Origin: Maritimibacter sp. HL-12
GTDB lineage: Bacteria > Pseudomonadota > Alphaproteobacteria > Rhodobacterales > Rhodobacteraceae
Assembly (NCBI RefSeq): GCF_900177545.1
Contig: NZ_FXBQ01000001.1
Coordinates: forward strand, 2,598,122 to 2,662,121
Reading direction: 5' to 3'
DNA length: 64,000 nt
Every line of letters begins with the position of its first letter. The first letter of the stretch is position 1. The position numbers and the translations under genes are program-made. The notes under the pieces were generated by a model. That model did not search any database, was not told the origin of the DNA, and saw only the letters and a program-made list of their open reading frames with translations. This document shows, piece by piece, positions 33,025 through 33,440 of the stretch.

Positions 33025-33405
33025 CTAGAGGCCCGTGTCTTCCCCCGACGGAGGCAGTGCCAGCCGGTCGAGCATCGGCGAAATGTCCTCGACCACCTCC
33101 GCCACGATCTGCACCACGCCGCTTTCGCGCTGGAGCTTGCCGGTGACCCGAAGCGCCCGCCCCGCCACCACGGCGCGGCGGTGGCGCTCGTAGGCCTGGT
33201 GCCAGACGATCACGTTGGCGATGCCGGTTTCATCCTCCAGCGTGATGAAGATCACCCCCTTGGCGGTGCCGGGGCGCTGGCGCACCATCACCAGACCCGC
33301 CACCGTCACCCGCGCGCCCACCGGCGGGTGGGCGAGCCAGCGGTGCGGGATCGCGGCAGGCGGACGGGGCCAGCGCATAGCGGAGGGGGCGGGATCGGGC
33401 GTCAT
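33025..33405 (-). CDS. Stand-alone OB-fold protein resembling the C-terminus of DnaE2
   Basis: A 126-aa protein. Residues about 26-110 ([20 protein letters not shown], then [19 protein letters not shown], ending [12 protein letters not shown]) look like the OB-fold at the extreme end of error-prone DNA polymerase DnaE2, normally about 1,000 residues long. The polymerase, PHP and HhH parts are absent, and imuA and imuB are not nearby. The ATG at 33405 lies 2 bp from a GTTC-N7-GTTC SOS box on the same strand. The gene may be a remnant of a lost imuA-imuB-dnaE2 cassette or a retained SOS-induced nucleic-acid-binding protein. The intact frame argues for the latter but does not prove it. Confidence 0.75.
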
Positions 33406-33407
33406 GA

Positions 33408-33440
33408 GAACAAAAATAGAACATTCAGACAGAAAGGCAA
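33408..33440 (-). promoter_or_regulatory. SOS (LexA) box and promoter
   Basis: On the minus strand GTTC-TATTTTT-GTTC (33422-33408) fits the alphaproteobacterial LexA site. It encloses a -10-like TATTTT (33418-33413); TTGCCT (33440-33435) is a -35 at 16-bp spacing. Transcription would then begin at or next to the ATG at 33405, giving a leaderless message. Confidence 0.7.

Follow-up and report, generated by a model that had tools for sequence, protein, structure and literature searches.

The system closest to the one described here is the ImuA-ImuB-DnaE2 mutasome, in which the polymerase DnaE2 (ImuC) classically ends in an OB-fold. Passages of Timinskas et al. 2013 (PMC3919608) give about 77% of DnaE2 proteins as ending in SRDF[HR], termed a putative interaction motif, and record DnaE2 proteins that lack the OB domain; the passages on the latter describe no separate SOS-controlled OB gene in the same genomes. 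A mutasome domain can be a small gene of its own, as in the stand-alone ImuB-C modules of variant mutasomes, which consist of the C-terminal domain of ImuB and lie next to their partner in an operon, and mutasome genes can be at separate loci, as in the split mycobacterial cassette imuA'-imuB / dnaE2 (Timinskas & Venclovas 2019, PMC6511836). In PolIII alpha (DnaE1), the OB domain is a covalent part of the polymerase and precedes a tau-binding domain that has no counterpart in DnaE2; in E. coli a protruding loop of the OB domain contacts the clamp, and binding of single-stranded DNA by the domain in isolation has been reported (PMC4703070).

The genome of Maritimibacter sp. HL-12 (G000) resembles the ImuA-ImuB-DnaE2 systems in possessing ImuA, ImuB and a DnaE2 core, in having LexA-type boxes and a clamp motif of the PLPLF type, and in that the two halves of its DnaE2 fit the family profile NF004225 end to end, but differs in that the OB-fold is on a separate gene, SRDF[HR] has been lost, and the genes are scattered over four loci. 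Mycobacterial DnaE2 is one chain, unlike that of HL-12, although the dispersal of mutasome genes is common to both. The small gene of HL-12 is like the ImuB-C modules in being a detached mutasome domain, but it is a polymerase OB-fold and is unlinked to its partner; it has the same fold as the OB domain of PolIII alpha but is separate from any polymerase. The core of HL-12 is itself one of the DnaE2 proteins without an OB domain. Very probably, DnaE2 is split in this genome and the OB gene, which has an SOS promoter to itself, provides in trans the half that the core is missing; the two proteins most likely reassemble. A literature search of open-access papers found no report of a separate OB gene.

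The gene and its surroundings (Table 1) lie in a window of 64 kb, the whole stretch of HL-12 DNA that was analysed. An earlier note on the window had claimed that the 126-aa frame matches the C-terminal OB-fold of DnaE2 alone, and profile searches agree: the frame matches the Pfam OB-fold family PF01336 (E 5.6e-15) and the NCBIfam DnaE2 profile NF004225 (E 4.8e-31), the latter match being limited to positions 947-1040 of 1047 and the next-best family following at E 3.9e-07. The fold is compatible with an SSB-like protein, but the family that fits best is DnaE2 rather than SSB. The PHP, polymerase and HhH domains, none of which is on the 126-aa chain, are carried by a separate 972-aa gene. The predicted structure contains the strands of an OB barrel together with helices (mean pLDDT 85). 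A fold search of the PDB with this model returned OB-folds throughout its matches, including that of M. tuberculosis DnaE1 (PDB 7pu7_A residues 1005-1099, Z 11.4); tRNA-synthetase OB-folds are the top Foldseek rows, a likeness of fold only and not of function, and a PDB search with the protein sequence gave no match. The loop between strands 1 and 2 (residues 41-50) has the lowest order in the model and is among the best conserved parts of the protein; from the model and by analogy, it is taken to be the equivalent of the clamp-contacting loop of PolIII alpha. The core residues of the domain are equally invariant in aligned stand-alone and DnaE2-fused copies. The frame, described earlier as intact, has dN/dS values of 0.06-0.31 in comparisons within the genus, which point to purifying selection.

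Table 1. Features at the OB-fold locus of Maritimibacter sp. HL-12, in positions of the 64-kb window.
Feature	Position	Strand	Basis
Stand-alone DnaE2 OB-fold gene, 126 aa (ATG at 33405, stop at 33025)	33025..33405	-	ORF reading; profile matches; predicted OB barrel
LexA (SOS) box GTTC-TATTTTT-GTTC, GTTCTATTTTTGTTC	33408..33422	-	sequence; conserved among relatives
-10 element TATTTT, enclosed by the LexA box	33413..33418	-	sequence; TATnTT kept in place in 61/77 relatives
-35 element TTGCCT, 16-bp spacer to the -10	33435..33440	-	sequence; TTG conserved among relatives
2Fe-2S ferredoxin gene, divergent; marks the OB site, outside the mechanism	33530..33853	+	profile match; beside the OB gene in 110/118 listed loci
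Peptidoglycan-binding lipoprotein-like gene, other flank	32416..33003	-	profile match; in 69/118 listed loci

The promoter elements that the earlier note had read from the sequence, a GTTC-N7-GTTC box around a -10 element with a -35 element at 16 bp, are present and recur among relatives. One scan across a species-genome collection yielded 80 named stand-alone OB loci, which include Maritimibacter, Aliiroseovarius, Tabrizicola, Roseovarius, Salipiger, Mameliella, Shimia, Ruegeria, Leisingera and Planktomarina. A perfect GTTC/GAAC box is found upstream of the gene in 78 of the 80, compared with 0.33 expected from Markov shuffles; the ATG lies 1-3 nt past the box in 67 of the 80 (2 nt in HL-12), and a -35 TTG at a spacing of 15-18 nt is found in 61 of 77 relatives, compared with 4 expected. 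The consensus among relatives, cTTGc...ATGTTCTATnTTTGTTCtcATG, has the appearance of a conserved LexA (SOS) operator layout of the alphaproteobacterial type. Since transcription is expected to start 7-8 nt past the -10 element, the transcript is predicted to begin at the ATG and to be leaderless. The text on the in silico LexA set of Dinoroseobacter shibae contains no DnaE2 term.

A search of the HL-12 genome for DnaE2 located the core at G000:C2:1624458-1627376 on the minus strand (972 aa; open frame 975 aa), 1.0 Mb from the OB gene. Its C-terminal end, ...RLSLRAHPIALLRPLLTPGLGGDQSA / ...VVEDYVSMRLSLRAHPIALLRPLLTPGLGGDQSA, is the linker that precedes the OB-fold, and full-length relatives continue from there into the OB domain. 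The two halves are exactly complementary: the core covers positions 4-937 of NF004225, where the OB gene begins at 947, so that they jointly make up one DnaE2 profile, leaving uncovered between and after them a linker of 9 positions and the last 7 positions. The core is preceded by a LexA-type box, GAACAAAAGGTGAAT, with one mismatch to the consensus, a form common to many split cores. ImuB is encoded at ~1.869 Mb of G000:C2 with the box GAACAAATCAAGAAC directly upstream, and ImuA at ~0.414 Mb with the box GAACAAAAAGAGAAC. Since imuA, the core, imuB and the OB gene are at separate loci (~0.41, 1.62, 1.87 and 2.63 Mb of contig C2) rather than in a single operon or cassette, and since each has a box, the mutasome of HL-12 may be described, from sequence, as four unlinked genes with LexA-type boxes. 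The statement in the earlier note that no imuA, imuB or polymerase is nearby holds within the window but is misleading, all three being elsewhere in the genome.

The position of the break is the same in other short cores: all 36 end in the linker after the motif HPxALLRxxLTP, where no more than 80 residues follow and an OB-fold is absent, whereas full-length DnaE2 proteins have at least 133 residues past this motif. An xLPLF-type clamp motif is kept in 34 of the 36. The terminal SRDF[HR] was found in 21 of 22 full-length DnaE2 proteins but in none of the 36 cores and in only one of 72 stand-alone OB proteins (that of G207), and is absent from the OB protein of HL-12. Since neither half carries the motif, the split enzyme differs from a full DnaE2 that has merely been cut in two.

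In a survey of 130 genera of the same family, evenly sampled with one genome per genus, 57 had both halves, two the core only (G073, G093), three the OB gene only (G080, G118, G122) and 68 neither. The OB gene is thus coupled to an OB-less DnaE2 in 57 of 59 genomes (Fisher p 1.5e-30, with relatedness ignored), and the co-occurrence is partly due to common descent. Pairwise distances of cores and of OB proteins are correlated (r 0.62; 0/2000 permutations as high). One genome counted among the 57, G015, was set aside, its DnaE2 spanning the start of a circular replicon. Most of the five genera with one half only look like cases of broken or missing contigs. The apparent OB-only genes of G118 and G122 belong to full-length genes that contig ends interrupt; the OB gene of G073 is probably in an assembly gap, since the neighbouring ferredoxin gene is also absent; in G093, the core and the ferredoxin site are present, and the OB gene was not found. 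G080 (99-100% complete, 7 contigs) seems to be a true case of an OB gene without a core: it has no DnaE2 core, and its OB gene (G080:C4:2083561-2083896, L267) is intact and boxed. A wider sampling, of 297 genera, showed an OB gene without a core in G090 and G322 as well, whose genomes are less complete. The OB gene can therefore outlast its partner for some time, and G080 is a natural test of whether it has a use of its own.

Within the class, a convincing split was not found outside the family. The candidates G537, G433, G462 and G359 were rejected as frameshifted or contig-cut full-length genes that retain SRDFH, and G533 has a short OB frame with no LexA box and no core in the stretch examined. 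A phage origin of the OB gene was also rejected, as 50,697 phage records gave one weak match only. The small, fast-evolving genome of G117 (L263, L264) has kept both halves, at 49% identity for the core and 35% for the OB protein, each with a perfect LexA box.

The OB gene is real, conserved and kept at one site, with the ferredoxin gene beside it in nearly all of the listed loci (Table 1). The relatives that have only full-length DnaE2 bear on this site. In G004, of the same genus, the only DnaE2 is full-length, and just ~160 bp, without an OB gene, separate the ferredoxin gene from the peptidoglycan-binding gene; G008 has two full-length DnaE2 proteins, no split core, and a decayed OB remnant of 39 aa adjoining the ferredoxin gene (L284:2139-2255). 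As judged from these two genomes, the OB gene appears to be lost or decaying where full-length DnaE2 alone is present.

Genomes that represent intermediates survive. In a tree of 58 cores, built by a quick method, a single clade (SH-aLRT 100) unites 34 split cores, G110 branches immediately outside it, and the unsplit G010, G278 and G319 are near the base with the split G207, at weak support. A tree of the OB domains, which have too few columns, parted the stand-alone from the classical fused copies at 92, with the OB domains of G278 and G319 on the stand-alone side. G010, G278 and G319 represent the fused stage, and in G010 and G278 the unsplit dnaE2 is already preceded by a LexA box, which operon-borne dnaE2 is without. 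In G207, the core and the OB gene are adjacent in separate frames with a box on each, and the OB protein ends in LFPSRDFH. In G110, the halves are on different contigs and the end is decayed (THPRDQSKLLFRATPSL); the remaining split genomes have dispersed halves and no terminal motif. Fused, adjacent-split and dispersed-split stages all survive, and the sequences read as the following order of events: dnaE2 of an ancestor in the Rhodobacteraceae/Roseobacteraceae would have left the imuAB operon and acquired its own LexA promoter, and a break would then have fallen in the linker that joins the (HhH)2/clamp-motif region to the OB-fold; the OB half, under its own LexA promoter, would have relocated beside the ferredoxin gene, and the terminal motif would have been lost. 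There may have been one such split or a few.

If the OB gene is half of a split DnaE2, DNA damage would cause LexA to leave all of the scattered operators together, and the core (with PHP, polymerase and HhH domains and the clamp motif PLPLF) and the OB protein would be made separately and most likely rejoin by contact. The rejoined OB-fold would act as it does in PolIII alpha, making contact with the sliding clamp, with single-stranded DNA or with both while lesions are bypassed, and would again steady the polymerase on the clamp or template. A more tentative and rather doubtful extension is that the split was a regulatory invention, in which the leaderless LexA promoter doses the OB protein apart from the core, so that it switches processivity or the clamp in response to damage, for DnaE2 and perhaps also for further polymerases; such a role could account for why so much of the family has retained the split and why the old terminal contact motif has gone.

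A different possibility is that the OB protein is an SOS-induced regulator that serves another partner (ImuB, DnaE1 or the clamp) and that the OB-less DnaE2 functions with no OB-fold at all. DnaE2 and DnaE3 proteins without an OB domain are on record in passages of PMC3919608, contact with the clamp is described for the OB domain of PolIII alpha (PMC4703070), and the genomes that have the OB gene without a core also retain ImuB-like matches. The coupling, however, is specific to the OB-less state of DnaE2 and not to the presence of ImuB, and genomes with full-length DnaE2 and ImuB have no stand-alone OB gene, so that partners of this kind are unlikely.

The earlier note had thought worth testing a domesticated SSB-like protein, which would be an SOS-induced OB-fold that acts alone on single-stranded DNA and is unconnected with the polymerase. 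Such a protein could be expected to have an intact and conserved gene with its own promoter and location, as is the case, and to persist without the core, as in G080 and possibly in G090 and G322. The predicted model shows flexibility in RQRPGTAKG, the loop of the protein that is conserved best, and loops that bind nucleic acids are often flexible. Against this, the invariant residues of the protein are identical to those of the OB-fold attached to DnaE2; and because the gene is almost confined to genomes with an OB-less DnaE2 and is lost or decaying beside full-length DnaE2 only, an independent SSB-like function is distinctly unlikely. The other scenario of the earlier note, the scar of a deleted mutagenesis cassette in which the deletion joined a promoter to the tail of a gene now decaying by chance, agrees with the finding of a DnaE2 tail behind an SOS promoter but is highly improbable, because the genome has kept the DnaE2 core, ImuB and ImuA, each with a LexA-type box, and also in view of the dN/dS and the same gene, promoter and site in more than 100 loci. 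Of that interpretation, the intact DnaE2 OB-fold and its SOS promoter stand, the former under purifying selection and the latter conserved, but neither of its two scenarios fits. Finally, trans-splicing by a split intein could make one chain of the two halves, as in cyanobacterial DnaE1, and PMC3919608 mentions cyanobacterial polymerases split by an intein. This is all but ruled out here, as the cores end 0-80 residues (mostly <50) past the linker and the OB halves begin from a few to ~40 residues before the domain, leaving no room for intein halves, to which neither half has any similarity.

A split DnaE2 would be a C-family DNA polymerase that is naturally encoded by two genes, its OB-fold being supplied in trans and controlled separately by DNA damage. 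For much of the marine Rhodobacteraceae/Roseobacteraceae, the model organism Dinoroseobacter shibae among them, this arrangement appears to be the usual one. The split may explain DnaE2 proteins that have been recorded without an OB domain. It also makes the role of the OB-fold of DnaE2 in translesion mutagenesis approachable through one small gene, with the polymerase left untouched.

Full-length copies of DnaE2 are common on plasmids of the family. G064 has a split pair on its chromosome and a full-length DnaE2 cassette on the replicon C4 of 126,304 bases, where the DnaE2 match has the same coordinates as on plasmid NC_009957.1 of D. shibae DFL12; G064 is very probably D. shibae, and this model organism then has two mutasomes, the chromosomal split pair and the plasmid cassette. 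In HL-12, imuB (L121, G000:C2 ~1.8665-1.8702 Mb) is alone, without imuA, and adjoins genes that look like those of a Mu-like prophage. The ImuB proteins of split genomes (for example L121:3024-4673) have open frames of ~550-600 aa, compared with ~490-510 aa in operon-type genomes, and contain additional sequence near residue 150.
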